In this document: piece after piece, positions 12,663-60,878 of the stretch
Layout of the letters: every line of letters begins with the position of its first letter
How positions within the stretch are numbered: the first letter of the stretch is position 1
Assembly: GCA_943788755.1 (NCBI GenBank)
Contig: CALSRM010000003.1
Coordinates: 930,001 to 994,000 of the forward strand
Reading direction: 5' to 3'
Origin: an uncultured Flavobacteriales bacterium
GTDB lineage: Bacteria > Bacteroidota > Bacteroidia > Flavobacteriales_D > Parvicellaceae
DNA: 64,000 bases
Position numbers and translations under genes: made by a program
The notes under the pieces: model-generated
What the model was told of the DNA's origin: nothing
What the model saw: only the letters and a program-made list of their open reading frames with translations
Database searches by the model: none

Positions 12663-12664
12663 TT

Positions 12665-32600: not shown

Positions 32601-33528
32601 AATCGTTGTTTTCATAGTGGTTAATTATAGTGTCGCCATTTTCCACGTTTATTCTGAAGAGTCCATTCCCTTGTGAACCAAACCATAATTCATTTTCTGA
32701 AGCTGGAAAAATTGCTGAAACTACATTGAAACGACTATGTTGGGTTCCATTATGGTTTTTAACGGTTGTAAACAACAGTCCATCATCGTTGATTGTGGCT
32801 ATATTTAATCCGTTATTGGTGCCGATTAAAACTTTATCATTAAATCCCTTTGTTATAGTTAGGATGTTGTTATCAGATATTGATAAAGGAGAATTAGGTT
32901 CGTTTTTATAATGAGTAACTAGGGCTGTTTTTTTATTTAAAAGACATAATCCTCCACCTTCAGTTCCAATCCAGACATACTTATTGTCCAAGAAAAGAGA
33001 CGTAGTTTTATTTGTTTGCAATCCATGGTTATAACGATATTGTCTTTCTCTATCCTCATTTGGAAAAAAGTGTACTATACCGTTTTTCGCAGTCGCAACC
33101 CATAATGAACCATCGGCTTCTTCTTTAATATCTTTTATGTTTCCAGACTTGAGCACTTCAGATGTCTTAACGTTTCCAAATTGTTTTGTTTCGGGGTTGT
33201 AATAGTTAAGACCTCCATTTTGTGTTCCAATCCATATAATACCTTTATTATCTTGGTATAAAGCGTTTATATAATCATTTGTAAGACTATTGTCAGAATC
33301 TAATCCTTGCTTGTAAATTTTAAAATGATACCCATCAAAACGATTAAGTCCTGCTTGGGTTCCCGCCCAAATGTAGCCTTGATTGTCTTGTAATATACAG
33401 TTTACAGTACTTTGAGAAAGTCCATCTTTTATTGTAAGTCTCGAAAACTTGATGGAGTTTGCATGCTGTGCGTATGTAAATTCTATTATGAAAATAAATG
33501 CTATTAATAGTATTTGTTTCATAGACAT
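29611..33528 (-). CDS. propeller sensor fused to class III cyclase and HD domain
   Basis: A 1305-residue membrane protein. After a signal peptide come two-component-type propeller repeats (about 25-690, many IWxGTxxGGLN units), a Y_Y_Y domain (about 700-790), one membrane segment (about 797-818), a coiled coil (about 825-880), a class III cyclase domain (about 890-1060) and an HD domain (about 1120-1290). The cyclase has both metal Asp (FTDIEGFT near 900; GDAY near 945), the adenine-type Lys in KIKTIGDAY, Asp in DIWGNTVNVANRM, and the transition-state Asn and Arg, so it should be active and adenylate-specific. The HD part has HHTLDVV near 1132 and HDAG near 1166. One protein may make and break a nucleotide signal. 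A second ATG is at 33522. Confidence 0.88.
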   Translation of the reverse strand: MSMKQILLIAFIFIIEFTYAQHANSIKFSRLTIKDGLSQSTVNCILQDNQGYIWAGTQAGLNRFDGYHFKIYKQGLDSDNSLTNDYINALYQDNKGIIWIGTQNGGLNYYNPETKQFGNVKTSEVLKSGNIKDIKEEADGSLWVATAKNGIVHFFPNEDRERQYRYNHGLQTNKTTSLFLDNKYVWIGTEGGGLCLLNKKTALVTHYKNEPNSPLSISDNNILTITKGFNDKVLIGTNNGLNIATINDDGLLFTTVKNHNGTQHSRFNVVSAIFPASENELWFGSQGNGLFRINVENGDTIINHYENNDYDRTSIPSNIVHSIISGRTGSIWIGTQDGISNFDPIKLGFQHYTYKYGDENSLNEKNVWSIYEGNDEIIWVGTRKGVSRINLKKNQYNHYLYKTDNLNEPNNNNVYSITSDTLGRIWAGAAGGLYILETSADFSTGEFKKIPFRDQITDQDDDRVYNLHIENDTTLWIACREGIAEIDLSTLNYKFFSHENSSAMPKEECRVVYSDSRNDLWIGFDGGGVTKIKRTFKSSEEKYAFINYKNDPNSSTSISNNTILSIWEDNNKNMWFGTYGGGLNKFNSSTHTFSSYTEENGLSNNSIYGVLEGSENTLWVSTNFGLSKFNISTSTFQNYQENDGLQSNEFNTGAYFRTSSGKLLFGGINGFNAFYPEVIQINAIPPSVVLTDILLFNIPIEHEIDTIPEVSFIKTLQLKSTQNNLTFKFAALHYTFPEGNKYKVFLEGADHEPIELGDLQQINYSNLSPGEYTLKIWAANSDGIWTESPAVLDIVITPPFWKTWWFMSIGIGFILLVIYGFYIVRMRAMKSQKRKLAFLVEKRTKQITQQKEQMELQKAALEVEKDKSDKLLANILPAETAEELKNKGKAQTRYYRMVTVMFTDIEGFTKIAETIKPSELVIKLDSLFGEFDKIIEKHQIEKIKTIGDAYMAAGGVPLRDKENPINSVLAAIEIQAFMKVNRDRIKKEDGEDATMWHLRVGLHTGDVIAGVIGTKRIAYDIWGNTVNVANRMEMSGEPDKVNVSGSTYELIRPYFDCTYRGKVPAKNKGEIDMYFVERIKPHLSKDVAGLVPNQKFKDYVNLHLYSSINYRKAERHIMRILKAKLSPNLHYHGIHHTLDVVEAAERLALMEGVLDDGIFVLKSAATYHDAGFVDQYDANEPVGARMAAEILPKYGYTQEQVNEVEKMIYATIIPHSPTTQLEEIICDADLDYLGRDDFHVIADNLRRELRDHGKIKSDRMWDEIQVKFLTQHKYFTKSAIQLRQAKKLIHIEEIKKRLEENNYKD

Positions 33529-33750: not shown

Positions 33751-34221
33751 CTATCCTAATTTTTTAAGAGGAAGAATTTTTTGTTTTTTCTTTTTAGGTT
33801 TGTTTTTGTTCTTTTTAGCACTATAGCCTCTATTATAAGCTTTGTCTTTTAATTTTGTTGCGAAGATGTCTTTTTCTTTACTTTTCTTATTTCGCCTTTT
33901 TTGTTTTTTCGGCTTTTTATTTTTAAAGATTACGAATTTTTTCTTTTTCTTTCTGTCTGGTGGTTTAGAACTGTATTGATTAGATTTTTTTTGTCTTTTG
34001 TCTTTTTTATTTAGAAATGGATCCTTGTTTTTCTTTTGTTTACCCTGATTTCCTTTCAGACCAAAAAGACCTAGTTTATTAAGCTTTGCCTGCTTATTTT
34101 TCTTCTTTGTTTTAGATTTTGCTTCTGAGGGGTCTCGATATTGGGCATGGAAAAAATTTGTGTTGATGGATACAACAGCAAGTAGAATTATAAGAAGGAT
34201 CCGATTTGTTGATCTCACCAA
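33751..34221 (-). CDS. lysine-rich exported protein of unknown function
   Basis: A 156-residue protein with a good signal peptide (LLIILLAVVSINTNFFHAQ, to about residue 27). The mature part is almost entirely low complexity and extremely basic, with runs such as DRKKKKKF and KNKPKKKKQK. It has little hydrophobic core and is probably disordered. I know no family. Exported polycationic proteins may bind lipopolysaccharide, peptidoglycan or DNA outside the cell; this is inference. It begins 3 bases after the ferritin stop, so it is cotranscribed with ferritin. Confidence 0.6.
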   Translation of the reverse strand: MVRSTNRILLIILLAVVSINTNFFHAQYRDPSEAKSKTKKKNKQAKLNKLGLFGLKGNQGKQKKNKDPFLNKKDKRQKKSNQYSSKPPDRKKKKKFVIFKNKKPKKQKRRNKKSKEKDIFATKLKDKAYNRGYSAKKNKNKPKKKKQKILPLKKLG

Positions 34222-46419: not shown

Positions 46420-47160
46420 TTAACTAATTGCTCTATATTTTTCAATAGCTATTTTTGTTTCTCCAAAGTATACCATTTCACCTTTGTGCATTAAAATTGT
46501 TCTGTTACAATATTGCTCAATCAAACTAGTACTATGGGAAACAATAATTGCTGTCCGACCCTTTATCCAATTCTCCTCTAATACTTTTGTTGCTTTATTT
46601 CTAAACTTTTCATCACCTACAGCAAAAACTTCATCTAAAAATATAATATCTGCTTTTGCATAAATTGCTATTGAAAATGACAATCGCTGAATCATCCCAG
46701 ATGAATAATATTTAATCTTAGTATCAACAAAGTCTTCCAGTTCAGCAAATTTTATAATGTCATTAAATATTTCATCTATTTGCTTAACTCTAAGACCTAA
46801 AGTAGAACCATTAACATAAATGTTTTCTCGAGCAGTTAATTCATGACTAAATCCTACTCCTAAATTCAACAATAAGGAAGTTCCGTTTTTAATAATGTTT
46901 CCCTCTTTATCTGGAACATAAGCTCCAGACATTATTTTTGTTAGTGTTGATTTACCACTTCCATTACGACCAATTATACCAATACACTCTCCTTTGTAAA
47001 TGTCAAGATTGACAGTCTTCACAGCCTTAAGGTGTTGCTTTTTATTTTTCTTATGAATATTAAACAACCTTTCCTGAAGGCTATGAAACGTTTTATCAGA
47101 AAAACGAAATGTTTTACTGATATTTTTCAAAGACAATGCTATTTCTTTTGTCAAACTCAT
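46420..47160 (-). CDS. polysaccharide ABC exporter ATPase (Wzt-like)
   Basis: A 246-residue ATPase of the polysaccharide/polyol phosphate export family (Wzt, TagH, KpsT). Walker A is GRNGSGKST, the signature YYSSGMIQRL, and Walker B IIFLDEVFAVGD, with the family's atypical signature. It lacks the C-terminal carbohydrate-binding domain found in Wzt proteins that recognise a capped glycan end. ATG 47160 is chosen over a TTG at 47193 that lies inside the permease gene; the gap to the permease is 4 bases. It is the last gene of the glycan assembly operon. Confidence 0.9.
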   Translation of the reverse strand: MSLTKEIALSLKNISKTFRFSDKTFHSLQERLFNIHKKNKKQHLKAVKTVNLDIYKGECIGIIGRNGSGKSTLTKIMSGAYVPDKEGNIIKNGTSLLLNLGVGFSHELTARENIYVNGSTLGLRVKQIDEIFNDIIKFAELEDFVDTKIKYYSSGMIQRLSFSIAIYAKADIIFLDEVFAVGDEKFRNKATKVLEENWIKGRTAIIVSHSTSLIEQYCNRTILMHKGEMVYFGETKIAIEKYRAIS

Positions 47161-47164
47161 TCGA

Positions 47165-47953
47165 TTAAAGTATTTCAGAAGCTCGAGAGCCAATTTTTTT
47201 AACCATTATCATGCCTATTAATACAACAACAATACCGTGGACAAAATTTAGAGCTAACAGCTTTAAGTCTGGTGGTAAATTGTACATTAATGTTTGCCTA
47301 AAATTAATAATAATTCCAGCTAAGGGGTTCATGTAGTTTAAGATAGGTAAGGTTTCGGCAATACGTTCATAATGATAAAGTAATGGCGAAATCCAAAATA
47401 AAAACATGATGACTAATCCCCAAATTTGCTTTATATCTTTTGCTATAAGAAATAGGTTAGATAGTATCATTGATGTTCCTATTGAGAAAAGAAATAAATT
47501 TAAAAATACGAGAGGAAACCACAAAGTATTGATGCCGAGTGACATACCGTCAATATATAGTGCAATAACAAAAACAACTAAATTGAACATGAAACCAATT
47601 ATAATACTTAATTGGCTAGATATATAAATATCTAATTTGGACATGTTAGAATACTCATAAAGATATTTTTTTGTTTTTAAAACGACAATCATCCCTGAGG
47701 TACTTTCTGTAAATACCCCCCAAACAATTAGCCCTATAAAAAGATATACTGCATAGTTTGGTACGCTAACTTGAAGAATTATAGCAAAGGCAACATAATA
47801 TATAGCCATTTGCACCAATGGCTTTATTAATGCCCAAAGTAATCCTAATTTATTTTCGTAATAGCGCAACTTAAATTCAATTTTAGCCAAAAGCCAAATC
47901 CTCTCAAGTCTATTGCTTTTTTTTAAGTCTTTATTTGAAATGCTATTGCTCAT
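47165..47953 (-). CDS. polysaccharide ABC exporter permease (Wzm-like)
   Basis: A 262-residue ABC-2 type membrane subunit with six predicted membrane helices. The N-terminal LLAKIEFKLRYYENKLGLLWALIKPL (amphipathic gate helix) and the C-terminal YLNPLAGI-like segment (LNYMNPLAGIIINFRQTL) are typical of Wzm/TagG permeases. With the ATPase it should flip a finished undecaprenyl-linked glycan across the inner membrane. The ATPase gene follows 4 bases later. Confidence 0.9.
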   Translation of the reverse strand: MSNSISNKDLKKSNRLERIWLLAKIEFKLRYYENKLGLLWALIKPLVQMAIYYVAFAIILQVSVPNYAVYLFIGLIVWGVFTESTSGMIVVLKTKKYLYEYSNMSKLDIYISSQLSIIIGFMFNLVVFVIALYIDGMSLGINTLWFPLVFLNLFLFSIGTSMILSNLFLIAKDIKQIWGLVIMFLFWISPLLYHYERIAETLPILNYMNPLAGIIINFRQTLMYNLPPDLKLLALNFVHGIVVVLIGMIMVKKIGSRASEIL

Positions 47954-47966
47954 TTGTTAACTAATA

Positions 47967-50129
47967 TTATTTATTTAACGCTCTATAGATTTTTTTTGAA
48001 AACGTACGCAAAGTTTTGTTTTTTTTGACAATCGAAATAAGCTTTCCTTTTAATAACCAATGATTGTTAGAAAACCCTTCTAATCCCCATGTTGGATTAT
48101 CATAATTTATTCCAGGCCCATTCTGATTTAGCAAGTTTGAAATCTTATTGCCATAAGCCTTAAAGAACTGACGGTGTTTCTCACTGATAAGACTGTATAG
48201 GTATAGCTCTTTATTTTTATTAAATGCCTGAGCCATTGAATTGGAACGAATTCTATATTGCCACCAAAGTTCTGGAAACACAACCCCTCTCGCTCCATTT
48301 TTAACCATAGAAATCACACTATCATAATCTTCCATGCCATAGATTAAAGCTGGGTCATTTTTCCCGAAATTGATAAAATCGGATTTTTTATAAATCAAAG
48401 CACTACTGTTTATCATATTATGTACCAATAAATAAGGCGGCTCAGGATTAAAAGTAGGCCAAGTAGATTTACTTTCTCCAAAATATTGTGCCCAACAGCC
48501 TACAAAACTAACGTTGGTATAATGCTTCAATACTTCCGTAGCTCTTTTATAGTAATCTGGACTCACTGTGTCATCAGCATCTAAAAAAGCTAAAAACTCT
48601 CCTGTAGCTTTGTCGGAACCGTAATTTCTGGTTAATGATAACCCTTCATTTTCTTTATTGTAAATGGTAACATTGTGTTTTTCATTTATTTCTTGAAGCT
48701 TACGAATACTCGCATCTTCTGTAGAACCATCGTTAACAATTATGATCTCTAGTGGGGCGTAACTTACTTTTGTTAGGGACTTAATTGTGTCTTCAATGTA
48801 GCTTCCCATATTAAAATAAGGAATAACAATACTTAATAATCCTTTTTCATCATTAAGACTTACTGTATCATTTTCTTTTCGATCAATTACTTCAATAAAA
48901 TCAAAATTTTCGGATAAAGTTTCTTGGTTTGCAAGCTTTTCTAATTCCAGATTTTTTTCAGCATAGACACTTTTATAATTCGTTGTTTTTTCAACAGCAA
49001 TTTGTGCTTCTTTTCCTATCAAAGTCAATTCGTCTTTTGATTTAGATAAAATGGAATACATTGTATTCTCGAAACTTTTCATTTCATCGTGTCGAAAAAT
49101 AAACCCGCTTTTATTATTTTTTATTATTTCTGTATGTCCACCATTAGTCGATGTCATTACAATTTTGCCCATAGCCATTGATTCTAGGACTGCATAAGGT
49201 AAATTATCTACGATGCTCGGCATTATAATTATATGAGCTTTTTTTAAACGTTCTTTTAAAAGTGCCGGTTTCATGTTTCCTTCGAAACGAATTAATCCTT
49301 TATCGATGTAGTGCTTGTATTTTTTCTTCACATAATCAATCATATCCGATTGCACAGGATAAAAGAAATGTTGTCCTCCGCCAATAATTGAAATGGGCTT
49401 ATCAAACCCATTATCCCACATATCTTTTAGATAAGAAAGCATTTCTAATCCACCTTTTTGTGGTGTGAGTTTTCCAAAGAAAACAAGATCGAACTCCTCA
49501 AATTCAGGAATTTCTCCAGAAGACCATTCATTATTGTATGGATTGAATATTCTTACGGGGTTTTTATCCAGTAAATTCATCCTTGGAGTTAATTCATCAA
49601 TTAGATATTGAGAAGGAGAAATAACAAGATCCGACATTCTTATGGTAGCTTTCTCCATTTCCCCTGCCCAATAATCAGGGAATTTAAAGCGGGGAACTTG
49701 GTTGTATTCAAAATATAAAAAACTTGGAGCATGCATGGTTAACACTACTTTTAGTTCTTTAAAATAAGGGTAGAGCAATTTCTTTTTTTGGAGAATGTAA
49801 TACGATATCCCTTTATAATCTTGTGTTTCTAGGATGTCAGGAATGCCTTTCTGAATCATTTCTAATTCAATAATATGGGCAAATTCCATACTTAACCTAG
49901 CATCAGTACCTAGGATTTTTCCTTTAGAAACTTGATTTGGAGAAAATCGAATAATTTCAACATTTGCAATGGGTGATTCTCGAAGAGTCCCTGAAACATT
50001 GTAGTCATTAACAAATACTTTTACAGAATGACCATTATTGGCCATCATTTTTGCTGTATGCCAACAATAAGTGCTTATTCCTCCTCCATGAATTGGAGGA
50101 AACTCTGTTGTTAACAGCCAATAATTCAT
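47967..50129 (-). CDS. two-domain glycosyltransferase (GT4 + GT2)
   Basis: A 720-residue fusion. Residues 1-395 form a GT-B enzyme of family GT4 (start FPPIHGGGISTYCWHTAKMMA, then FFGKLTPQKGGLEML and MPSIVDNLPYAVLESMAMGK with the E-x7-E region). Residues about 425-700 form a GT-A enzyme of family GT2 (LLSIVIPYFNMGSYIEDTIKS, then VNDGSTEDAS and the metal motif LDADD). Two catalytic sites in one chain suggest two successive sugar additions or a polymerase that makes a two-sugar repeat. Both sites look intact. It abuts the methyltransferase gene upstream with no gap. Confidence 0.88.
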   Translation of the reverse strand: MNYWLLTTEFPPIHGGGISTYCWHTAKMMANNGHSVKVFVNDYNVSGTLRESPIANVEIIRFSPNQVSKGKILGTDARLSMEFAHIIELEMIQKGIPDILETQDYKGISYYILQKKKLLYPYFKELKVVLTMHAPSFLYFEYNQVPRFKFPDYWAGEMEKATIRMSDLVISPSQYLIDELTPRMNLLDKNPVRIFNPYNNEWSSGEIPEFEEFDLVFFGKLTPQKGGLEMLSYLKDMWDNGFDKPISIIGGGQHFFYPVQSDMIDYVKKKYKHYIDKGLIRFEGNMKPALLKERLKKAHIIIMPSIVDNLPYAVLESMAMGKIVMTSTNGGHTEIIKNNKSGFIFRHDEMKSFENTMYSILSKSKDELTLIGKEAQIAVEKTTNYKSVYAEKNLELEKLANQETLSENFDFIEVIDRKENDTVSLNDEKGLLSIVIPYFNMGSYIEDTIKSLTKVSYAPLEIIIVNDGSTEDASIRKLQEINEKHNVTIYNKENEGLSLTRNYGSDKATGEFLAFLDADDTVSPDYYKRATEVLKHYTNVSFVGCWAQYFGESKSTWPTFNPEPPYLLVHNMINSSALIYKKSDFINFGKNDPALIYGMEDYDSVISMVKNGARGVVFPELWWQYRIRSNSMAQAFNKNKELYLYSLISEKHRQFFKAYGNKISNLLNQNGPGINYDNPTWGLEGFSNNHWLLKGKLISIVKKNKTLRTFSKKIYRALNK

Positions 50130-50741
50130 TTATTCTTGTATTTTTTTGATCACAACATCACAAAACATTTCAGGATGTAATGCAAAAAATAACATTTCAA
50201 AATTATGTTCTACCATAAACTCATTGGTAGCTTGAACCACACCATATTCTTCTTTGGTAAAATGATCATACATAATGTAATCATTCATAATTATGTAGCC
50301 ATCGGGTTTAAGAACACGAATGGCTTCTTTTAAATCTTTTTTAACACACTCGTAGTCATGAGCCGCATCAATATACATCCAATCAAAATAATGATCTGGA
50401 AAAGTTGCTAAGGTATCCCAAGACAACCCTTTCATTACTTTTACTTTATCGCCATGCGTTTCAAATTTAGTTTTGATATAGAACTCATGGGTCTTTTTCA
50501 CAAATCTATTTTTATGCGCATAATCATTAGAATTAAATGTATCCGCCAAAATCAATTCGGAAGGCACCGTTATCTGCAATAAATGACAAGACCAATCTCC
50601 CCCTAAAACCCCTATTTCAATTCCGACACCATTTTTAGGTAAATGTTCTAAAATTTGATGCCTATTGGTTAGCAACTTTGACTTTTTCAACATTTTTGGT
50701 GTCAATTTTTGTGCATATACCTTTTTCTCTATTTCACTCAT
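50130..50741 (-). CDS. class I methyltransferase (Methyltransf_24-like)
   Basis: A 203-residue SAM-dependent methyltransferase. The SAM motif is GVGIEIGVLGGDWSCHLLQ at about residue 36, the acidic strand is LILADTF, and FDWMYIDAAHDYECVKKDL followed by GGYIIMNDY-like (DGYIIMNDYI) are typical of the TylF/Methyltransf_24 group. In this operon it probably adds a methyl group to a sugar hydroxyl. The gene shares zero-base boundaries with both neighbours. Confidence 0.82.
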   Translation of the reverse strand: MSEIEKKVYAQKLTPKMLKKSKLLTNRHQILEHLPKNGVGIEIGVLGGDWSCHLLQITVPSELILADTFNSNDYAHKNRFVKKTHEFYIKTKFETHGDKVKVMKGLSWDTLATFPDHYFDWMYIDAAHDYECVKKDLKEAIRVLKPDGYIIMNDYIMYDHFTKEEYGVVQATNEFMVEHNFEMLFFALHPEMFCDVVIKKIQE

Positions 50742-51701
50742 CTACTTAAATATTTTAAACACCTTTCCGAAGGAAAGATACCATCTTGGTAAATAATTAT
50801 ATTGGTTTTCGTGCCAGTCTTTAATTTTATCTATTTCATTTTCGTACCAATCTACGACTTCTTTTTTATCAAGCTCAAAATTAACTACCTTATCGGATAA
50901 TGCATCAATTAATTCTTCTTTAAATTGGATATAAAGATTGGCGTTTATAGGTTGATTCGAAATGTAAATTCTGTCTTTTTGAAGAATAACCAATTCTTTT
51001 CGATCTCTATTGTAGCCATCATAAACATGAATAGGAGTAGCAGGCAAAACACTTTTATAACCGTGTTTTGTAGCCGAAATATAAGTATTACTATTTGGCA
51101 CATCCCAAGGCGTATCTTGGTTAGTAAAACCAGCTCTAGCACATCTCATGGTAAAGTCAACATGCCCCATTCCTCTGAAACCAAAAGAATCAACATCCAT
51201 AAACCCAACCTTTTCAATTACATGTGGAGTAAAAGTATAAAAGAAGCCATGTGCATGGAGCATTGGTACTTTTCCAATTAAACTTCCTTCAACTTTGGGT
51301 TTTTTCAAAAATTGTTCTGTACCCCAATTTTCATCACAGAAGACCAAATGATGATTTATTGATTCCATAGCAGTCTTATAATACAGATCATCCCATCCTG
51401 ACTTTAAAAAGGTAATGTCATCGTCTACTTTAAAACAAAAGGCATATTGTATACTTTCCAAACGACTCAAAATAGTATTCATTTGTTGATGAACGCCAAG
51501 CCTTTTATTTTTAATGACAACAAGCTTTATCTTGTCAGTTTTTAATGAATCTAAGTACTCGATTGTCCCATCTTCAGATCCATCGTCAGCTACAATTAGC
51601 GTCCAATTAAAATTTGTTGACCTGGTACTCTCCCATGAGCGGATACAGTCCTTCAAGTAGTCAATTCTATTGTAGGTTGTTATGGCGAATATGAATTTCA
51701 T
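50742..51701 (-). CDS. GT2 glycosyltransferase with shared C-terminal motif
   Basis: A 319-residue GT-A fold enzyme. The N-terminus (FIFAITTYNRIDYLKDCIRS), the VADDGSEDGT turn, and the metal motif KVDDD place it in the GT2 family. The substrate is unknown. Its last 27 residues (from IKDWHENQYNYLPRWYLS) contain the Y-x2-[LM]-P-x-[WL]-aromatic-x3-G signature that recurs at the C-termini of three other transferases in this operon (see findings). It abuts the methyltransferase gene and lies 3 bases from the DUF1796-like gene. Confidence 0.87.
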   Translation of the reverse strand: MKFIFAITTYNRIDYLKDCIRSWESTRSTNFNWTLIVADDGSEDGTIEYLDSLKTDKIKLVVIKNKRLGVHQQMNTILSRLESIQYAFCFKVDDDITFLKSGWDDLYYKTAMESINHHLVFCDENWGTEQFLKKPKVEGSLIGKVPMLHAHGFFYTFTPHVIEKVGFMDVDSFGFRGMGHVDFTMRCARAGFTNQDTPWDVPNSNTYISATKHGYKSVLPATPIHVYDGYNRDRKELVILQKDRIYISNQPINANLYIQFKEELIDALSDKVVNFELDKKEVVDWYENEIDKIKDWHENQYNYLPRWYLSFGKVFKIFK

Positions 51702-51704
51702 TTA

Positions 51705-52385
51705 TTATTCTGTAACTTTTAATAGCATCTCTTTAATCAAATCATCATCCGTTTTCGCCCATAATAAATTAGGGTCGTTACCACCCCATACAGCCCTAGT
51801 TTTAAATGTAAAAAATTCAATCCCCTCATTATGAGTGTGATGAATTAATTCTCTCGATTTATCTTCTCCAATTATCTCTTGAGTAAAAATTATTAATTGA
51901 ATATAGGTGCCATTAATGGAATAAAATTTAATGAAGTTTTCAGCTTTATCTAAAAGACATTTAACATCATTATTTTTATCTATTCTATAATGGTAAAAAA
52001 AACAAATATCCTTTTTCCCTTTAATATCTTTTAACCTATGTATTTTTCGTAGAAAACTATCCCTATGTAGTTCATTAGATATGACATCATGATGAGTAAA
52101 TTCGAAGCCTTTAGTATGCATAGATGAATAGATCATATCAGATTCATTGATCTTTTTATGTCGTACTACTTTTGTTCGGCCTACATAACCATATTCTAAT
52201 TCATTTATATCTAATAAACTTGCATATGACGTCTTTTCTAAATGAATTACATAATCCATATTAGATCTTCCATGCGAATAAATAGTACTAAAACTTTTTA
52301 AATTATGTCGTTTAAGTATTCCGTCGGTTAAACAATTTTCTCCTATAGATAAATATAATTTATTAGGTATATTGATATTTGTCAT
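51705..52385 (-). CDS. DUF1796-like putative cysteine peptidase-fold protein
   Basis: A 226-residue protein that I match, with moderate certainty, to the DUF1796 (papain-like) family from the start LYLSIGENCLTDGILKRHNLKSF followed by MDYVIHLEKT, which parallels the family's SLGxNC..LRR....PFDW segment with a conserved Cys (residue 18). Further His-rich stretches (FEFTHHDVISNELHRDSFLRKIHRL, then CFFYHYR) may complete the site. Such proteins recur in glycan loci, but no activity is known to me. It sits between two GT2 genes of the operon. Confidence 0.6.
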   Translation of the reverse strand: MTNINIPNKLYLSIGENCLTDGILKRHNLKSFSTIYSHGRSNMDYVIHLEKTSYASLLDINELEYGYVGRTKVVRHKKINESDMIYSSMHTKGFEFTHHDVISNELHRDSFLRKIHRLKDIKGKKDICFFYHYRIDKNNDVKCLLDKAENFIKFYSINGTYIQLIIFTQEIIGEDKSRELIHHTHNEGIEFFTFKTRAVWGGNDPNLLWAKTDDDLIKEMLLKVTE

Positions 52386-52396
52386 TCTATATAAAG

Positions 52397-53578
52397 TTAA
52401 AAGCCTTTTTTAAATTTTATTCTTCTGAATATCCCTCCTATTTTCAGAAACCATTTTGGTAGATGATCATAAGTTTCAGAGTACCATTTTAGCTCTTTAT
52501 TGATGATAGAATTTTTGTGACTTAACCTTAAATCACTCTTGTCTGAAAGATTAACTATCTCAATGTTGCTTATATAATATTTTTGGTAATCGGATAACCA
52601 ATTTTGATCAAGAGATACGATTAAAAATTTATACTCTTCTTTTATTAGAATTTTTTTTAAGCAATTCAATAATGCTTGATCAACTAATGAAAGTACATGC
52701 TTTTCCCATTTGTGAGAATTATAATAGTTTACAAAGTTTGTTATGTATTCAAAAAGATGATCTTCTGTAAACTTATTCCATCTCTGATTTAGGTTATATC
52801 TAAATCTACCAACTACAATTTGTCTAAAAAGATCGTTCTCTAATTGTTCCGGTGCGTGTACTTTGAAATGTGCATAGATAATCTCAAATGCTTTAAATAT
52901 GGAGTATGTGTGAATTTCTTTTGCCGTTAGACTGTATCCTTCAGGATTCTGCACATAATTATAAAGAATATCATCAATTACCACAATTTTTTTTGAACGT
53001 TCAACAACTAACGGAATTGTTGCAAAATCTTGATGTGCAATTCTTGTTGGAAATGTTATCTTATTCTTAATAAATAATTCTTTTTTATAAATTTTTCCCC
53101 ACGGGGCAGGATTAAATAAGTTTTCAACAAATATTTTTAAAGAATCATTTCCTGAATATTCAGCCGCTTTGTATTTGCTAGAAGTTGTAATCACTCCATT
53201 GATTTCATTAATAATATTATAGTTACAAACGACTATATCAGCATTTGTTAATTCTATGTTTCTTATCAGGACTTCAATATAGGTTTCAGCAATATAATCA
53301 TCAGCATCTAGAAAACATAGATACTTTCCACGTGATATATTCAACCCTGTATTTCTTGCATCTCCAGCACCTAAGTTTTTTAGGTGTGACTTAACCTCTA
53401 CATTTTTTTCTTGAGATTTTATTTTATTTAATAAGTCTAAGCTAGAATCAGTACTAGAATCATCTACATATATAACTTCGAAATCATTAAAAGTTTGATT
53501 TGAAACGGATTGATGAAAAATAGCAATTCTTTTTTCACAATTATAGACTGGAACTATTATTGAAATTAAAGGGTTCAT
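52397..53578 (-). CDS. GT2 glycosyltransferase with shared C-terminal motif
   Basis: A 393-residue GT-A enzyme of family GT2. It has LISIIVPVYNCEKRIAIFHQS, VDDSSTDSSLDLL, GAGDARNTGLNISRG, and the metal motif FLDADD, followed by PWGKIYKKELF and a C-terminal region of about 190 residues. The tail ends in the Y-x2-[LM]-P signature (SETYDHLPKWFLKIGGIFRR). Transcribed in a compact run; its start overlaps the stop of the upstream GT2 by ATGA. Confidence 0.88.
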   Translation of the reverse strand: MNPLISIIVPVYNCEKRIAIFHQSVSNQTFNDFEVIYVDDSSTDSSLDLLNKIKSQEKNVEVKSHLKNLGAGDARNTGLNISRGKYLCFLDADDYIAETYIEVLIRNIELTNADIVVCNYNIINEINGVITTSSKYKAAEYSGNDSLKIFVENLFNPAPWGKIYKKELFIKNKITFPTRIAHQDFATIPLVVERSKKIVVIDDILYNYVQNPEGYSLTAKEIHTYSIFKAFEIIYAHFKVHAPEQLENDLFRQIVVGRFRYNLNQRWNKFTEDHLFEYITNFVNYYNSHKWEKHVLSLVDQALLNCLKKILIKEEYKFLIVSLDQNWLSDYQKYYISNIEIVNLSDKSDLRLSHKNSIINKELKWYSETYDHLPKWFLKIGGIFRRIKFKKGF

Positions 53579-54693
53579 TTTTTTGTGTTTTTAAGAAATG
53601 AGCCCAATTTTTTCCACCAATTCGGCATATTTTCGTAAATATTTTTATAATACCCTAATTCTCTATCTCTTGTTTCGTTTAATCGGTTTAATTCATTATT
53701 AATACGCTCGAAATCCTTTGGTGAAAAACTTTTTTCTACCTCTTTGTTATTGGAAACTTGTTGTTGCCCTTCATTTTCATTCAGTTTTCTTTTAATTTTA
53801 TTAAGCTCTGATTTGTAAAATAAATATTCAGAGTAAAATTCGTTATTACACTTTTCTGAATAGGTTAATAAGTTTTGTAGCTCATTATAATCTTTACCTG
53901 TCAAATCATTTCCTATACTCTCAATAACTTTAACTTTAATTTCATTATCGATTGCAGATTTTGAAAATAATTTAAAATCTTTAAATTTGGATATTAATTC
54001 TTTCTCGAAAGGAAAAGCAACATAAGTTTTATTTGACTTATGAAAAACATTAAAAACATAGTCTTGAAATTCAGTTCTTTCAGGGCCATTCGGGAGTATT
54101 GTAGTAGTCAACTTGTTTGGACCTTGAGAGCCCCAATAAGTAAAGTCATTTAAAAGCTCCATTTTATCTTTACCATAGTAATTCTTGATCCGGGCAGCAT
54201 ATTCCATATCTCCATTTGCTCTAACTGGAAGGAAATAACCTATATCATCAACAACTTTTTTCCTAATAACAGGATATCCAACACCTCTCGTCCAATCCCT
54301 AAACCATAGTTCATTGGTGTCTTCATAAAACCTAACATACCGTGTCTCAATATGCATTGTAGACTTATTTAATTTTAAATAATTAATTATATTTAAAAAT
54401 CTGTTTGGGCTAACTAAATCATCTGAATCAACAAATGCAAGAAACTCCCCTTTTGAATGCAATATCCCAATGTTTCTTGAAAAATATGTCCCTGAATTTA
54501 TTTCGTTATCATAGATTTTTAATCGATCATTTTTAATCGACTTTAAGATTTTAAGCGTAGAATCTTGGCTGGCATCGTTAATAACTAACAATTCAAAATC
54601 AGTGTATTTTTGATTTAAAACAGCACTAACGACACGTTTAATATGTTTTTCAGCATTAAATGCTGTCATTATTATAGATAGTTTTACTCCCAT
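53575..54693 (-). CDS. GT2 glycosyltransferase with shared C-terminal motif
   Basis: A 372-residue GT-A enzyme of family GT2. It has LSIIMTAFNAEKHIKRVV, INDASQDSTLKIL, SRNIGILHSKGEF and the metal motif FVDSDD. After the catalytic part the region about 270-345 is predicted coiled coil rich in Asn, Glu and Lys, and the end carries the Y-x2-[LM]-P signature (KNIYENMPNWWKKLGSFLK). The start 54693 is chosen because its ATG overlaps the upstream stop in a TAATG junction; an ATG at 54735 would add 14 residues. Confidence 0.87.
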   Translation of the reverse strand: MGVKLSIIMTAFNAEKHIKRVVSAVLNQKYTDFELLVINDASQDSTLKILKSIKNDRLKIYDNEINSGTYFSRNIGILHSKGEFLAFVDSDDLVSPNRFLNIINYLKLNKSTMHIETRYVRFYEDTNELWFRDWTRGVGYPVIRKKVVDDIGYFLPVRANGDMEYAARIKNYYGKDKMELLNDFTYWGSQGPNKLTTTILPNGPERTEFQDYVFNVFHKSNKTYVAFPFEKELISKFKDFKLFSKSAIDNEIKVKVIESIGNDLTGKDYNELQNLLTYSEKCNNEFYSEYLFYKSELNKIKRKLNENEGQQQVSNNKEVEKSFSPKDFERINNELNRLNETRDRELGYYKNIYENMPNWWKKLGSFLKNTKK

Positions 54694-56105
54694 TATAAAT
54701 TTAATTTTCTTAATAAAGAACCTAACTTTAGCCATAAGTAGGGCATTTTAGTATATACAGAATCATGAAATTCATTCAATTCACTATATTTTTCTTTTAA
54801 TTCTTTCAACTCAATTTTCATACTATCTAAAAGCTGATTTTCATTAACTCCCTCTATTTTAAGTTGAGGGGCTTTTTTTATGTTTTGTAGATAGTGGGAT
54901 ATGTAGTATTTATGAATTATTCCAGGAGGGATTATATCTTTAATCCATCGATTCAAATTTGAGTGCTTTAATTTTGTATTCCTATCAACTAGTTCTATAG
55001 CTTTTTTAGGGTTAATTTTTTTAGATTCAATGTATAGATTGTTCAAATGTTTAATATATGAATCATAATTATATCCTAATTCAGTAATTCGGTTAAGAGC
55101 ATTTTTACTCATTTCGAGTAACTCATTTTTGTTAGAATTCAACTGGAGAATATCAGTTGCAACTTTAGATATTTCTCCAATACTATACACCATTCCAGAT
55201 TTCCCATGTTGGATTGTTGATGCAACATTTCCAACATCATAAGACAATGGAATTACACCACAAGATAGTGCTTCATAAATTACTAACGGAGCTCCTTCGT
55301 AATTACTCAATAGAAGTAAAATGTCAGATTTTAATAGGGACTTTTTAACCAACTCTGGTGTTTTTGCATCAAGGATATATTCTACTTCTATAGTTCTTAG
55401 GTTCAATTTATCAATTCTTTCTACTAATTCTTGATGATCTGGCCCATTCCCAACAATTCTGAACTTAACATTAATATTTTTTTTTTGTAATTCATTAATT
55501 ATTTGAGGTAATCTGAAAACACCTTTTATTGAGTCTTCTGTTCTTCCAATAAACGTGATATTTAACTTGTCTTCAGAAAAGACTAATTTATCATCACTTT
55601 CATTTAAATTAATTGCACTAGGACATGCAAGAAAGGAGATGTCTTCAATTCTTTTTGGAAAAATCGTCTTTAATTCCAAGCATCCTAATTGAGAAACGCT
55701 AATAAATTTTGAAATAAGGGGTTCAAATTCTTTGAAATTATCGTAATAATAAGTTCCCATTCCATGTAAATAACCAAACACAATTGGACTTACCTTGTAT
55801 TTCTTTACTAATTGATGTAATTCTTCTAAGAAGGGTCTAGCATACATTGGTATTATTAGTAAGTCATTTGGTGATATATCAGAAAACATATCAGAAAACG
55901 TACTTCGAGATATAATTTTAGATTTTTCATTCAAACTTGAAATAGATATACTATCTAAGTATCTTTCATCTGCAGGATTCACATTCCCTAAATTTATTGA
56001 GAAGGTGTTATGCCCTTTTGATCCAAGACTCTTTGCTAAGTAATAGGAGAAAGATTCTACTCCTCCCATAGAGAGATTACTTACTATGAAAATCCTATTG
56101 TTCAT
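54693..56105 (-). CDS. GT4 glycosyltransferase with shared C-terminal motif
   Basis: A 470-residue GT-B enzyme of family GT4. It starts FIVSNLSMGGVESFSYYLAKSLG, has ITFIGRTEDSIKGVFRLPQII for the nucleotide-sugar half, and LLLSNYEGAPLVIYEALSCGVIPLSYD with the E-x7-E pair. The C-terminal 60 residues are outside the catalytic fold: a coiled coil (ELKELKEKYSELNEF) and then the Y-x2-[LM]-P signature (SVYTKMPYLWLKLGSLLRK), the same as in the GT2 enzymes although the folds differ. It overlaps the repeat-bearing methyltransferase gene by 4 bases. Confidence 0.87.
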   Translation of the reverse strand: MNNRIFIVSNLSMGGVESFSYYLAKSLGSKGHNTFSINLGNVNPADERYLDSISISSLNEKSKIISRSTFSDMFSDISPNDLLIIPMYARPFLEELHQLVKKYKVSPIVFGYLHGMGTYYYDNFKEFEPLISKFISVSQLGCLELKTIFPKRIEDISFLACPSAINLNESDDKLVFSEDKLNITFIGRTEDSIKGVFRLPQIINELQKKNINVKFRIVGNGPDHQELVERIDKLNLRTIEVEYILDAKTPELVKKSLLKSDILLLLSNYEGAPLVIYEALSCGVIPLSYDVGNVASTIQHGKSGMVYSIGEISKVATDILQLNSNKNELLEMSKNALNRITELGYNYDSYIKHLNNLYIESKKINPKKAIELVDRNTKLKHSNLNRWIKDIIPPGIIHKYYISHYLQNIKKAPQLKIEGVNENQLLDSMKIELKELKEKYSELNEFHDSVYTKMPYLWLKLGSLLRKLNL

Positions 56106-57697
56106 TTGGTTAATTTAAAAAATCCTTTATGAGCCTTTATTAGCGCATAAGACAACTCAAATTTCAACTTCCATTTTTTTGCAATTTCGGCCTCTTCACT
56201 TCGATAAGCATCATCTAGATATATAACCGTTTGATCTGTAATGTAAGATTCTAAAAGAGGAAGTGCTGGGTACCTTGCCATGTATTGAGTATTCCCGGGA
56301 GGCCCATCAACAGAAATTAATGAAATATCTGAGGGGAATGTGAGCCCCTCGACATCATACCAAATCCACTTTTCACCACTTATGTCATATTCCTTTAAAG
56401 GACAATAGTGCACTTCACAATACTCTTCTAAATCGTGTGCTTTAATCAAAGCCTTTGTTTTCTCGTAATAATCTTTAGAATGCTCAACAGAAATCACTTT
56501 ACCTTTTCCATTTTTTTTAACTCCGTAGCCTAGCAATAGAGTAGAAATTCCACTCCCAATATCAATTACCGACCCACTCCCTTTCTCGAGTAAACAAGAC
56601 AGCGTTTCATGCGCATAATCAGAACTTACTCTCCACTCATGCATAATCGGTAATGGTGCATTTAATTTTATTAAATTATGAATAGACAAAAGCGCATCAA
56701 CTCGATCATAGGTTGTATTCAATTGTTTTTCTATGTATTTTTTCTGATCATCTTCACTGAATAAATTGTTTATTCCTTGTTGACTATTCGTTACGGTATT
56801 TGTAATTAGTTTCAACGATTCTTTATCTGTTACAGATTTGTTATCCATCAGTTGTCTAATTACCTCTTGACCTCTCACAGCTTCTGAACTTGATTTTTCA
56901 ACCGATTGTATAACTGCCCCTTGACCTTTTGAAAGTCCAGAGGTTGATTCATTAATGGATTGCTTAATTACTTCTTGACCTTTTGAAAGTCCAGAGGTTG
57001 ATTCATTAATGGATTGCTTAATTACTTCTTGACCTTTTGAAAGTCCAGAATTTGATTCGTTAATTGACTGGCTAATTACCTCTTGTCTTTTTGTAAGTTC
57101 AGAGGTTGATTCATTAATGGATTGCTTAATTACTTCTTGACCTTTTTCAGCTTCTGAACTTGATTCTTCAATCGCCTGTATAACTTTCTCTTGTCCTTTT
57201 GTGAAACTTGAACTTGATTCGATTATTGACCGTCTAATTACCTCTTGCTCTTTTCCAACTTCTAAAGTTGTCTTTTTCAACGACAATTCAAAACCTTCAC
57301 CAGTCTTCGATAATTCGTTAGATAAGTCTGCTAACAAACCTTTTGTTATCTTTCCAAGAGCATCAAAATGTGAAGAATTTTTTAATGAAATATTTTTCAA
57401 TTCTACATTCATCCAATCTTTCATTTCGCTCTGGGATGATTCTAGAATGCTCAATCGTTTCGCCAACTTTTCAGCTCCTTGTTTATACTCTTTATTTACT
57501 CTCTCAGTTTGGTCATTTGTCCAATTATGAGTGACCATTATTAAATACATTAATAGCACAGCTAATTCGACTGCAATAAATACTCCCCCGATTAAAAATT
57601 TCGATTCCCCCTCATACAGACCAAAAATGGCTAAACAAAGATTCATTAAAGTTAGAACCAGAGCTATGTACTTTATTTTATTTATTAAAAACTTCAT
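56102..57697 (-). CDS. membrane-anchored repeat-rod methyltransferase
   Basis: A 531-residue protein in three parts. Two membrane segments (about 9-27 and 35-56) anchor the N-terminus. Residues about 60-300 are helical and include eight tandem 18-residue repeats (residues 146-289, consensus xKGQEVIKQSINESTSGL). The C-terminal 170 residues form a class I SAM methyltransferase (VIDIGSGISTLLLGYG at about 376, then VISVEHSKDYYEKTKALI and ISVDGPPGN). An 18-residue period equals five turns of alpha helix, so the repeats should form a straight rod that holds the enzyme at a fixed distance from the membrane. WbdD of E. coli O9a, which caps chains, also links a methyltransferase to a coiled-coil ruler. 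A similar role here is inference. Confidence 0.8.
   Translation of the reverse strand: MKFLINKIKYIALVLTLMNLCLAIFGLYEGESKFLIGGVFIAVELAVLLMYLIMVTHNWTNDQTERVNKEYKQGAEKLAKRLSILESSQSEMKDWMNVELKNISLKNSSHFDALGKITKGLLADLSNELSKTGEGFELSLKKTTLEVGKEQEVIRRSIIESSSSFTKGQEKVIQAIEESSSEAEKGQEVIKQSINESTSELTKRQEVISQSINESNSGLSKGQEVIKQSINESTSGLSKGQEVIKQSINESTSGLSKGQGAVIQSVEKSSSEAVRGQEVIRQLMDNKSVTDKESLKLITNTVTNSQQGINNLFSEDDQKKYIEKQLNTTYDRVDALLSIHNLIKLNAPLPIMHEWRVSSDYAHETLSCLLEKGSGSVIDIGSGISTLLLGYGVKKNGKGKVISVEHSKDYYEKTKALIKAHDLEEYCEVHYCPLKEYDISGEKWIWYDVEGLTFPSDISLISVDGPPGNTQYMARYPALPLLESYITDQTVIYLDDAYRSEEAEIAKKWKLKFELSYALIKAHKGFFKLTK
56831..57262 (-). repeat. eight tandem 54-bp repeats inside the methyltransferase gene
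   Basis: Units start at 56831, 56885, 56939, 56993, 57047, 57101, 57155 and 57209. The units at 56939 and 56993 are identical over all 54 bases, which points to recent duplication; the others have diverged. All are in frame and keep the helix pattern, so copy number can change rod length without breaking the gene. Confidence 0.9.
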
Positions 57698-58940
57698 TTG
57701 TTTTCTTTATGTTAATCATATTGATAGAAATCACAAAACTGATGAATAAAACTCCTTGATTTCTACTCAATATATTCTCGGTTAGGCAAGCTAGTGCAAA
57801 TGTACATACTATCCCAAGTAATAGCCAATTTCTTTCTTTTATGGCTTTTAAAAATAAAAATACTAAAAATGTGAAAAAAATAATGAACCCTAATATCCCA
57901 TTCGACATTAAAATATCTAAATATTGATTATGTGTATTGTGATTTCTTTCGCGCGCCAGGATGAAGTTTTTTTCTTCATAATTCTTCATTAAACTTTCCT
58001 GAACATCTCCCAGTCCATCTCCGAAAATTGGTTTCTTCTTAATCTCTTCAATAGCACAATTCCAAATAGCTAATCTTGTATTTAATCCATTCCAATTTTC
58101 ATCCTTTATTTCGCCATTAAAATGATTAATAGGGTTAGGGTTGTCATACTTGTATTCCAGGTTCGTAATGCTATTAAACCGCTTTAAAACTTTAGGGAAC
58201 ACAGCTGTCATGGTTAAAATAAAGAGGAGAATACCACTCATTAATAAAGCTACTTGCTTTTTGCTGACCTTACCTAAAAGGATTATCAAAACAAATCCCA
58301 GAAAAATAAAAACAGTTGTCAACATAGCCGTGCGGCAAGCCAATAGATATTGTGCTCCAATAAAAACAACAAACAATAAAATGCTTGTCAATTTTTGGGT
58401 AGGCTTTTTTATTTCTCCAAGGTTCCACAACGAGAAAAGACCAACCAAAGCCACATTTATAAATAAAGCGTAATAAACAGCTTGTTTCTCCACTATTGAT
58501 ACTAAATTATCATTGTAAAAATAGCCAGAATCACCAGTTTGATTATAAAGACCTATTTGATTAATAAAACCAACAATAAGTATCGATGCTATCATTACAA
58601 TAGCGCTTTTCAAAAAGAAAACAAAATCTTTTCTTTTTATTTCAATCAAAGCAAAAACCAATGGGAAAATAAAAAGAGAAAGTCTTATTTCCAATAGTTT
58701 CCAGCCTGCTAAAATATTTTCTGAATAAAGGGTAGACACACTAAAAATTAAAAATGGTGAAATTAAAAACCAAAAGGTTTTATTAGACATCAATGTTTTT
58801 AGTTTGTTTAATATTGTTTTATCAAAAAGAGTCACTGACAGCATCAAGCCTATGCCTATATTTGTAATTAATGGAATAGAAATAAGGTGAAAGAAAAGAA
58901 CCCCCAAGCTCAATAATGCTAATATTCTCGACCTATCCAT
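57678..58940 (-). CDS. O-antigen ligase/polymerase-family membrane protein
   Basis: A 420-residue protein with about 11 predicted membrane helices and one large extracytoplasmic loop (about 245-345), the layout of WaaL/Wzy-type proteins. The loop carries LNTRLAIWNCAIEEIKKKPIFGDGLGD and ERNHNTHNQYLDILMSNGILG; the RNHNTHNQYL part matches the conserved His region of Wzy_C proteins. It could join the finished glycan to lipid A-core, or polymerise repeat units. It overlaps the upstream GT4 gene by 8 bases and the next gene by 20. Confidence 0.83.
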   Translation of the reverse strand: MDRSRILALLSLGVLFFHLISIPLITNIGIGLMLSVTLFDKTILNKLKTLMSNKTFWFLISPFLIFSVSTLYSENILAGWKLLEIRLSLFIFPLVFALIEIKRKDFVFFLKSAIVMIASILIVGFINQIGLYNQTGDSGYFYNDNLVSIVEKQAVYYALFINVALVGLFSLWNLGEIKKPTQKLTSILLFVVFIGAQYLLACRTAMLTTVFIFLGFVLIILLGKVSKKQVALLMSGILLFILTMTAVFPKVLKRFNSITNLEYKYDNPNPINHFNGEIKDENWNGLNTRLAIWNCAIEEIKKKPIFGDGLGDVQESLMKNYEEKNFILARERNHNTHNQYLDILMSNGILGFIIFFTFLVFLFLKAIKERNWLLLGIVCTFALACLTENILSRNQGVLFISFVISINMINIKKTNEVFNK

Positions 58941-60045
58941 TTACAGTTTTAAGTTTTTTCTTCTTAACGGGTATTCTGGAAATAGCTATATAAAGTTGTT
59001 CATATTCTAACGCACATCTATAATTATCATAATGCCTACGGTACATTTTTAAAGATGTATTTGAAAGTAAGTCATATTTTTCCTTATTGTCTTTGAGGTG
59101 TTCAATGTATTCAATAGCTTGTTCTTTGGAGTCAAAAAGAAAGCCATTTACATTTGGGGTTACAAGGTCTGTGTTTCCAAAACACCTATTCATAACTAAC
59201 GGCAGGCCAAAAGCTAGAGCCTCAATGGACGCTAAGGGTAATCCTTCCCATGATGATGAAGATAAATAGATGTCTGACTCTTCTAAATGTTCAAAAACTT
59301 CTTTTTTAGAGCACCATCCAGTTATTGTAATGTTTTTACTTGTCAGCAAATGCCTTAGCTCTCCATCACCAATCCATGTGAAAGAGACATTATCGTCGTT
59401 CTCAAAAAATTTAGCAATACGATTAAAAAAAGCAGGATTTTTTTGAATGGTGATTTTACCACATATAACAATATTGAAAGTGTTCTTTATTAAAGGTTTT
59501 TTCTTTTCTTCTCTTGAGATTGTAACTCCATTTTGAATAATTTTGGATTTAATTCCCAAACCTTTATAGGCATTAAATTCTGACCTGGAGGAACTTATTA
59601 TTTTTGAATGAAACTTATTTGCTAATTGTTCAATTAATTGATATGCTCTTTGTTTTTTAGGAGAAATATCAGTTCGTAAAAATGAAGCTGCATTAGGGGT
59701 GTAAATAATTTTTTTAAATCCGCAGGTTAAGCCAATGTAACGACCTATAATTCCAGCTTTTGATGAATGTAAATGTAAAATATCAAAATCTATTTGTTTT
59801 AATATTTTTTTTAATTCGAAATATGCTTTGTAATCTAATCTTAAGTTGATTTCTCTTTGAGCATTTTGCCATTTAATAAATGTTGCCTTTTCATTGTACT
59901 CTAATTTTATTTGTTCTAATTCCCTATTGTCATCTCTTTCCCCATGAACAATAATGTGCTCATGACCAGGCATTCCAAAAACGAGTTCATGAATGAAAGT
60001 ATTTACTCCTGTAGCGAAAGGTTCAACAACATGTACTATTTTCAT
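58933..60045 (-). CDS. GT4 glycosyltransferase
   Basis: A 370-residue GT-B enzyme of family GT4. It starts with IVHVVEPFATGVNTFIHELV and has LHLHSSKAGIIGRYIG in the N-terminal half, VICGKITIQKNPAFFNRI in the sugar-nucleotide half, and LSSSSWEGLPLASIEALAFGLPLV with the E-x7-E pair. The N-terminal block resembles enzymes that extend lipid-linked capsule or O-antigen units. It starts inside the stop of the GT2 gene upstream (4-base overlap). Confidence 0.88.
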   Translation of the reverse strand: MKIVHVVEPFATGVNTFIHELVFGMPGHEHIIVHGERDDNRELEQIKLEYNEKATFIKWQNAQREINLRLDYKAYFELKKILKQIDFDILHLHSSKAGIIGRYIGLTCGFKKIIYTPNAASFLRTDISPKKQRAYQLIEQLANKFHSKIISSSRSEFNAYKGLGIKSKIIQNGVTISREEKKKPLIKNTFNIVICGKITIQKNPAFFNRIAKFFENDDNVSFTWIGDGELRHLLTSKNITITGWCSKKEVFEHLEESDIYLSSSSWEGLPLASIEALAFGLPLVMNRCFGNTDLVTPNVNGFLFDSKEQAIEYIEHLKDNKEKYDLLSNTSLKMYRRHYDNYRCALEYEQLYIAISRIPVKKKKLKTVNG

Positions 60046-60878
60046 GGAGCTTTAAATAGTTGTTTTTTCATCTTTAAAACAATTTTTGAAGGAACTGCCA
60101 TGAGTCCAATATTGTATGCTATACCATAAGCCGTATGGAAATTAAATTTACCGTATTTGAGAACAATCTTTAATTTGCTTTTGTTTTGCTCTTTTCTTTT
60201 GTCATAAGAAATGCCCTTTGGATTATATTCAACTTTAGTCAGGAATTTTGCAATGTTTGCTGTTTGTGATTTGTTTGCCATATTAAAAAAATAGGCATAA
60301 TCTTCTGCAGCTTCAAAGTTGAGAGGGTACTTCCCTAATGCCTCAACAACTGATAATCGATACATAACGGATGGGTGGATAATATTGCAACGAACAGCCA
60401 TCATTCTTCGTATCTTTTTATGATTCGTTGGAGGTTTGTAACAAAAAATGTCCTTTTTCGATTTATTATCAACCCATTTGACCCAAGAACCAACAATGTC
60501 TATGCTATTATTATTGAGTAAAAAATTTTCTTGAATACTAAATCTATTAGCAACGCAAACATCACCACAATCTAGTCGAGCCACAAACCTGTGTGTCTTC
60601 TTTTTTAAAATATAATCTAATCCTACATTTAAAGCATTGGTTATTCCCCCGTTGGTTGAAATTTCAATAATTTTGACATTTACATTTTTATTTAAAATGT
60701 TGTTGATTTCAGGGATATTAGGTAATTGATTATTATCACTTCCATCATCAACGACAAGTACATCTATACTATTCGAGTGTTTAATGGATCTTAACGAGTT
60801 CATTAACCCTTGTAGATTATTGTAATGCGGTACAAGAACAATTGTGTTCGAATTTGCGCTATCGTTAATGGAAGTCAT
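60042..60878 (-). CDS. GT2 glycosyltransferase, first gene of the operon
   Basis: A 278-residue GT-A enzyme of family GT2. It has IVLVPHYNNLQGLMNSLRSI, VDDGSDNNQLP, TNGGITNALNVGLDYI and LDCGDV in the place of the usual DxD metal motif, then HPSVMYRLSVVEALGKYP. The C-terminal 50 residues are hydrophobic and basic, suggesting contact with the membrane. As first gene of the 14-kb operon its upstream region (60879-61127) should hold the promoter, but I see no exact TAnnTTTG there. Confidence 0.86.
   Translation of the reverse strand: MTSINDSANSNTIVLVPHYNNLQGLMNSLRSIKHSNSIDVLVVDDGSDNNQLPNIPEINNILNKNVNVKIIEISTNGGITNALNVGLDYILKKKTHRFVARLDCGDVCVANRFSIQENFLLNNNSIDIVGSWVKWVDNKSKKDIFCYKPPTNHKKIRRMMAVRCNIIHPSVMYRLSVVEALGKYPLNFEAAEDYAYFFNMANKSQTANIAKFLTKVEYNPKGISYDKRKEQNKSKLKIVLKYGKFNFHTAYGIAYNIGLMAVPSKIVLKMKKQLFKAP

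Follow-up and report, generated by a model that had tools for sequence, protein, structure and literature searches.

The 64,000-nucleotide window analyzed here comes from an uncultured marine Flavobacteriales bacterium (contig CALSRM010000003.1, positions 930,001–994,000), and our analysis concerns one of its genes, at positions 56102–57697 of the minus strand (all window features described below lie on this strand), which encodes a membrane-tethered methyltransferase with a long rod. The gene is a single ATG-started open reading frame (ORF) of 531 amino acids, with coordinates and frame checked, and its translation has full-length homologues in two Brumimicrobium genomes. From the N- to the C-terminus, the protein consists of two membrane segments, a proline-free rod of ~260 residues, and an O-methyltransferase of the COMT fold, an architecture that the original prediction had proposed and that hydropathy, profile, and fold evidence corroborate. 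Using the Kyte-Doolittle scale (19-residue window, threshold >1.6), the two membrane-spanning segments were placed at residues 7–30 and 31–59 (57521–57679). Three lysines (K2, K7, and K9) precede or begin the first of these segments, which, under the positive-inside rule, suggests an N-in, C-in topology that would place both rod and enzyme in the cytosol. The identity of a Wzz polysaccharide co-polymerase, in which the two membrane segments lie on either side of a helical domain in the periplasm, was considered and rejected, with both membrane segments being N-terminal here and no PF02706 match found in the protein at E-values up to 1.

The methyltransferase domain (residues 320–531; 56105–56740) was delimited by profile, fold match, and alignment, and contains the motifs DIGSGIST, DGPP (D464), and LDD (D495-D496). 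The class I methyltransferase profile PF13578 (Methyltransf_24) covers residues 379–496 (E 2e-7; 32.1 bits against a curated cut-off of 26.3), and residues 343–531 of the predicted model match COMT-fold structures, mostly at Z 17–18 (range 16.5–18.1), among them the sugar methyltransferase MycF (4xvz; Z 16.5). MycF and the COMT-type structure 8c9v have the fold of residues 343–531 in common with the window protein but carry no such anchor or rod, and their substrates are uninformative here. The core glycines of the S-adenosylmethionine motif (GxGxS), a WY pair, D464, D495, and D496 are invariant across 21 aligned sequences; judging from the analogy with COMT-type methyltransferases, the three aspartates may sit, and act, like the metal ligands of those enzymes. 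In the AlphaFold2 (AF2) model, built from a four-row alignment, this domain was better predicted than the rod (predicted local distance difference test [pLDDT] mostly 70–92).

The general COMT fold leaves the substrate unfixed, and there is weak similarity to PCMT, as would suit an enzyme that methylates a non-glycan target (a protein, a lipid carrier, or a small molecule) and carries its rod as a coil for signalling or structure. We regard such a function as very improbable: the PCMT equivalog model scores 17.9 bits against a cut-off of 159, and most relatives with enough genomic context lie among glycan genes, including a GT2-domain fusion, a relative in a capsule locus, and others that adjoin Wzt genes. 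We are confident, short of certainty, that the 531-residue protein is a glycan O-methyltransferase, with the glycan as its substrate.

The rod (approximately residues 60–319; 56741–57520) was delineated from composition, hydrophobic spectrum, and AF2 helices. It contains no proline, and its hydrophobic residues recur with a period of 3.61 residues, a signal that none of 1000 shuffled sequences equaled in strength and that agrees with the near-straight rod of 18 residues per five helical turns proposed earlier. Within it, in-phase repeat analysis and Tandem Repeats Finder (TRF) located eight tandem 18-residue (54-bp) units at residues 146–289 (56831–57262), all in phase as predicted, with the consensus GLSKGQEVIKQSINESTS. 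Identity at lag 18 over the rod is 0.36, compared to a maximum of 0.16 in 10,000 shuffles, and TRF scored the 54-bp array at 356 and its 162-bp harmonic at 421. The array is degenerate at its edges, with unit 8 only 22–44% identical to the other units. Units 5 and 6 (56939–57046), however, are identical in all 54 bp, and unit 3 shares 91% of its bases with this pair, without a single synonymous difference, therefore the array has expanded recently by duplication, in line with the earlier idea that it changes in 54-bp steps. In structure prediction, suggested as a check for a continuous helix, the AF2 monomer model shows two membrane helices and helices at residues 31–130 and 139–284, with the rod at low confidence (pLDDT ~37–60). 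An AF2 model of the B. glaciale homologue shows the same plan. The rod is probably helical, and in the explanation preferred below it would probably also be oligomeric. A Pfam suprabasin-repeat match in the protein falls below its cut-off and was taken as compositional.

The rod-methyltransferase gene is part of a 13-gene glycan operon (46420–60878) that lies on one strand with intergenic gaps of −43 to +13 bp. From position 60878 to 46420, the gene order is GT2, GT4, Wzy_C, rod-methyltransferase, GT4, GT2, GT2, DUF1796, GT2, a second Methyltransf_24, a GT4-GT2 fusion, ABC permease, and ABC ATPase, which comprises seven glycosyltransferase (GT) genes with eight GT domains. The expected ABC-exporter glycan operon is thus present, with a Wzm-like ABC-2 permease (ABC2_membrane; 47165–47953) and a Wzt/TagH-like ATPase of 257 amino acids (ABC_tran; 46420–47193), both recognized by profile, next to the GT genes, the Wzy_C gene, and a second, soluble Methyltransf_24 enzyme (50130–50741). 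The ATPase has no carbohydrate-binding module (PF14524, Wzt_C); PF14524 found nothing in the B. aurantiacum and B. glaciale genomes, and the window genome has two Wzt_C matches outside the operon, one of them under the cut-off. The operon skeleton, including the rod-methyltransferase gene, is common to the window, B. aurantiacum (L039), and B. glaciale (L040). The second methyltransferase is kept in all three operons (65–84% identical), and of 299 genomes of the order, no others were found to have the 720-aa GT4-GT2 fusion. While the ends of the operon are conserved, the block from the rod-methyltransferase gene to the last GT2 varies, with different GTs, forming a cassette-like variable center. 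The DUF1796 gene in this operon (51705–52385; putative papain-like peptidase family) has no counterpart there in the two Brumimicrobium operons.

Full-length homologues of the 531-residue protein were found only in B. aurantiacum and B. glaciale, and the same-genus genomes that we examined lack the rod-methyltransferase gene. The catalytic domain is 67% (B. aurantiacum) and 57% (B. glaciale) identical to that of the window, whereas the window rod matches both Brumimicrobium rods at chance level (25% identity compared to shuffled means of 23–24%). The two Brumimicrobium rods are 35% identical to each other, more than the 30% that shuffled sequences reached at most. The rods are nevertheless similar in length (window: 262 residues, B. 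aurantiacum: 300, B. glaciale: 289), corresponding to a calculated 39–45 nm across the three proteins if fully helical, and all three rods have a hydrophobic periodicity of 3.59–3.61. Rod lengths of the two Brumimicrobium proteins were taken from the comparison above, because a local hidden Markov model misplaced the domain into the rod in these and in a plasmid-borne relative (L086, described below). The original prediction had suggested comparing repeat number in related genomes, and this comparison did not yield a graded series: the 18-mer is private to the window genome, and both Brumimicrobium rods lack it yet are near-equal in length to the window rod. The repeats are thus one lineage's route to building the rod, rather than a requirement. 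Because rod length is nearly conserved while the window rod has lost detectable sequence similarity to the other two, selection seems to have acted on the reach of the rod, as a spacer, rather than on its sequence; coils with drifting sequence but held length have been described as molecular spacers (PMC5082667). A rod-only match in another genome (G243, L045), in a protein lacking the membrane and methyltransferase domains, was taken as helix-composition similarity. Between B. aurantiacum and B. glaciale, the catalytic domain is 53% identical, compared to 67–91% for the skeleton genes. A catalytic-domain swap, which these identities suggested, was not retained, as an outgroup tree leaves the grouping unsettled (bootstrap 58) with B. 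glaciale on a long branch; divergence of the catalytic domain is unusually high in B. glaciale.

Relatives of the methyltransferase were surveyed in the order, the phylum, a Balneolaceae-like family, and the class. In each locus examined outside the three operons, relatives with membrane segments are rod-less, with ~18–39 residues between anchor and enzyme. These rod-less, two-membrane-segment Methyltransf_24 enzymes (Balneolaceae-like and others, e.g., L075–L082) share with the window protein the anchor type, the catalytic family (~33–38% identity), and glycan neighborhoods, but differ in the short spacer and, in most loci, in the Wzx-type flippase alongside; no ABC permease was found near them within the stretches examined. 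All three rod-bearing proteins have an ABC permease and ATPase in their operon, where no Wzx was found. In Wzx pathways, the cytosolic glycan is only a short oligosaccharide, so no reach is needed, and the pairing of rod and ABC exporter is what one would expect if reach is required when long chains are assembled on the cytosolic side. The family has other N-terminal modules, for example, a TPR plus coil in L041. On the E. coli plasmid pAL.H8 (L086, 4867–6708), in an independent ABC-type capsule locus, a 613-aa protein annotated as hypothetical consists of an N-terminal domain, a coil-like stretch of ~150 residues, and the same methyltransferase. In L136 (9374–10996), a two-membrane-segment methyltransferase is fused to a GT2 domain, with a Wzx-like gene downstream. 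Soluble relatives with short N-termini adjoin Wzt genes in L155 (1939–2769) and L156 (8547–9272), and an invariable pairing of coils with ABC exporters was dropped on this account. The L156 methyltransferase stands between two Wzt genes and overlaps one, the carbohydrate-binding domain scoring above the cut-off in one and below it in the other, and this soluble enzyme could be a cap-adding enzyme beside its reader. Some relatives adjoining Wzt genes belong to another Flavobacteriales family.

The explanation that we prefer for the whole, which we hold tentatively and at nearly an even chance, is a cytosolic, membrane-tethered O-methyltransferase whose rod sets chain length. Arguments for it are the COMT fold with its invariant residues, the conserved position of the gene in three syntenic ABC-exporter glycan operons, the rod length held at chance-level identity, the pairing of rods with ABC exporters, the pAL.H8 relative, the relatives that adjoin Wzt genes or are fused to GT2, and the published systems with a terminator at the far end of a coil (PMC11231755, PMC3482155, PMC13168486). 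The substrate would be an undecaprenyl-linked glycan, built by the operon GTs and exported by the operon ABC transporter. The two N-terminal segments would fix one end, and the straight helical rod would keep the catalytic domain off the membrane where chains extend, such that only chains grown long enough to reach the enzyme would be methylated. Methylation would probably stop further extension. Because only far-grown chains would reach the enzyme and methylation would probably block their extension, rod length would dictate a minimum, or the modal, length of the chains, much as WbdD does in E. coli O9a with its domains in the opposite order. The step specific to this mechanism, that the protein is a chain terminator controlling glycan length (the ruler function first proposed), is plausible but falls somewhat under an even chance in our judgment.

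In E. coli O9a WbdD, a three-stranded coil holds the methyltransferase and kinase ~20 nm off the membrane, and coil length sets chain length (PMC3482155, PMC5082667). The predicted plan of the window protein resembles that of WbdD (E. coli O9a/O8, K. pneumoniae O3/O5), a chain-terminating methyltransferase or kinase-methyltransferase with a coiled-coil ruler: the methyltransferase would sit at the end of a long coil that is farthest from the membrane, with attachment at the other end, and the glycan locus is ABC-dependent (PMC3482155, PMC5082667, PMC11231755). WbdD-type terminators are also marked by a trimeric coil, a terminal methyl on the glycan, and a site near the membrane that recruits the polymerase; on this last point, GT tails shared within the operon (described below) hint at docking. 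Unlike WbdD, it has an N-terminal anchor and a C-terminal enzyme, membrane-spanning segments in place of the amphipathic helix, a COMT-type fold match, no kinase, a partner Wzt without the carbohydrate-binding module, and a rod of 39–45 nm (if fully helical) rather than ~20 nm, partly made of tandem 18-mers. No WbdD chain was among the best PDB matches listed for the protein, which excludes nothing. Related coil-terminator designs occur in K. pneumoniae O4, O7, and O12 and in E. coli O101 (PMC11231755, PMC13168486). The E. coli O101/O162 enzyme, with a methyltransferase domain, a C-terminal coil, and a terminal O-methyl group, is likewise a coil-bearing O-methyltransferase in an ABC-type O-antigen locus, and its ruler role was also inferred (PMC13168486), although there the enzyme is N-terminal and the coil C-terminal. 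K. pneumoniae O4 ORF7, O7 ORF6, and O12 WbbB resemble the window protein in that a coil separates terminating from polymerizing modules (PMC11231755), and differ in their Kdo (3-deoxy-D-manno-oct-2-ulosonic acid) or methyl-phosphate chemistry, in the same-chain GT modules of some, and in the reported Wzt module. The window locus has the ABC exporter of WbdD-type systems but lacks the cap-recognizing Wzt module, therefore we did not file the protein as a WbdD-type terminator. By analogy, it plausibly varies the theme of the coiled-coil terminator, with its domains in reverse order and a similar way of working.

Several points weigh against a length-setting rod. WbdD-type systems use the carbohydrate-binding module to export capped chains only, and this module, reported for all terminated O-polysaccharide examples (PMC11231755), is the one missing from the operon Wzt. 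K. pneumoniae O2a, whose exporter lacks the module, couples extension to export, with chain length set by exporter/synthase stoichiometry (PMC11231755). The second methyltransferase and Wzy_C could provide alternative routes to methylation and chain length within the operon. The 18-mer array was found in no other genome examined, repeat number could not be tied to chain length from the three genomes, and the helicity of the rod depends on the low-pLDDT prediction. The association between rod and ABC exporter, moreover, represents one operon type in three genomes, compared with a rod-less set dominated by one family, which amounts to few independent events, and relatives that adjoin module-type Wzt genes have no long rod.

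The same missing module bears on a second account, in which the protein is a glycan O-methyltransferase with its rod as a scaffold or reach arm and not a ruler, and synthesis coupled to the module-less exporter sets chain length, as in O2a (PMC11231755). Here, the rod would gather enzyme and GTs, or give a single enzyme access to internal residues of a long chain in the cytosol for methylation. A feature of the operon GTs is relevant to the gathering version. Similar C-terminal tails, roughly Y-x-x-L/M-P-x-W-x-x-K-x-G, occur on one GT4 and three GT2 proteins of the variable block: the GT4 encoded at 54693–56105 (tail VYTKMPYLWLKLGSLLRKLNL, 54693–54779) and the GT2 proteins encoded at 53575–54735 (IYENMPNWWKKLGSFLKNTKK, 53575–53661), 52397–53578 (TYDHLPKWFLKIGGIFRRIKFKKGF, 52397–52483), and 50742–51701 (QYNYLPRWYLSFGKVFKIFK, 50742–50840). 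Of 555 distinct ORF ends in the loci collected, a pattern scan found this tail on 8, every one of them inside the three operons, and one tail used as a query against eight genomes gave clear matches (E < 0.03) solely in operon GTs; the Brumimicrobium bearers lie at 12455–14725 and 15749–16729 in L039, and at 11695–15030 and 15030–16004 in L040. Because two GT folds share it, the tail may be a tag by which these enzymes dock to the membrane or to a protein, and its near confinement to the three operons is what a docking tag would show. Rod-less methyltransferase relatives are also common. We consider the scaffold or reach-arm function a serious possibility, if on balance doubtful; by itself, it leaves unexplained why rod length has stayed near 260–300 residues despite sequence drift.

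The Wzy_C gene (O-antigen ligase/polymerase; 57678–58940), which overlaps the rod-methyltransferase gene by 20 bp and adjoins it in all three operons, raises a further alternative. The ABC transporter could export a short lipid-linked oligosaccharide that Wzy_C polymerizes or transfers in the periplasm; because the enzyme would decorate only this cytosolic oligosaccharide, no polymer length would be measured. Eight GT domains would suit a large repeat unit, two further Wzy_C matches elsewhere in the genome could supply the general ligase, and Wzz-domain proteins are encoded elsewhere in all three genomes. The operon itself, however, has no Wzx or Wzz gene, and the long rod would be without obvious use. 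The Wzy_C protein carries H-N-x9-G-x2-G, a pattern that would fit WaaL/PglL-type ligases, and a sequence search gave no PDB relative for it. We judge this arrangement decidedly unlikely.

If the rod of the methyltransferase is a ruler, the repeat array constitutes a natural quantized length variable, and each 54-bp unit gained or lost should then alter chain length by the same amount. The most elaborate form of this idea, a reversed-polarity ruler that natural 54-bp duplications adjust (each unit adding 2.7 nm, if helical), that needs no exporter able to recognize the cap, and on which GTs assemble via the shared docking tail, seems unlikely to us. The coiled-coil terminators that we considered from the literature are from Proteobacteria, and in most of them the enzyme precedes the coil; an anchor-first, enzyme-last version in Bacteroidota would, if true, point to more than one origin of the ruler principle. 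The missing carbohydrate-binding module would then show a ruler working without cap-gated export, or else point to another role of the rod.

Elsewhere in the window, an ORF at 29611–33528 encodes a 1305-aa protein with a two-component-like sensor region followed by adenylate-cyclase-like and HD-like regions (domains judged by eye). Close to it, a small ORF at 33751–34221 is extremely lysine-rich and overlaps short tandem repeats.

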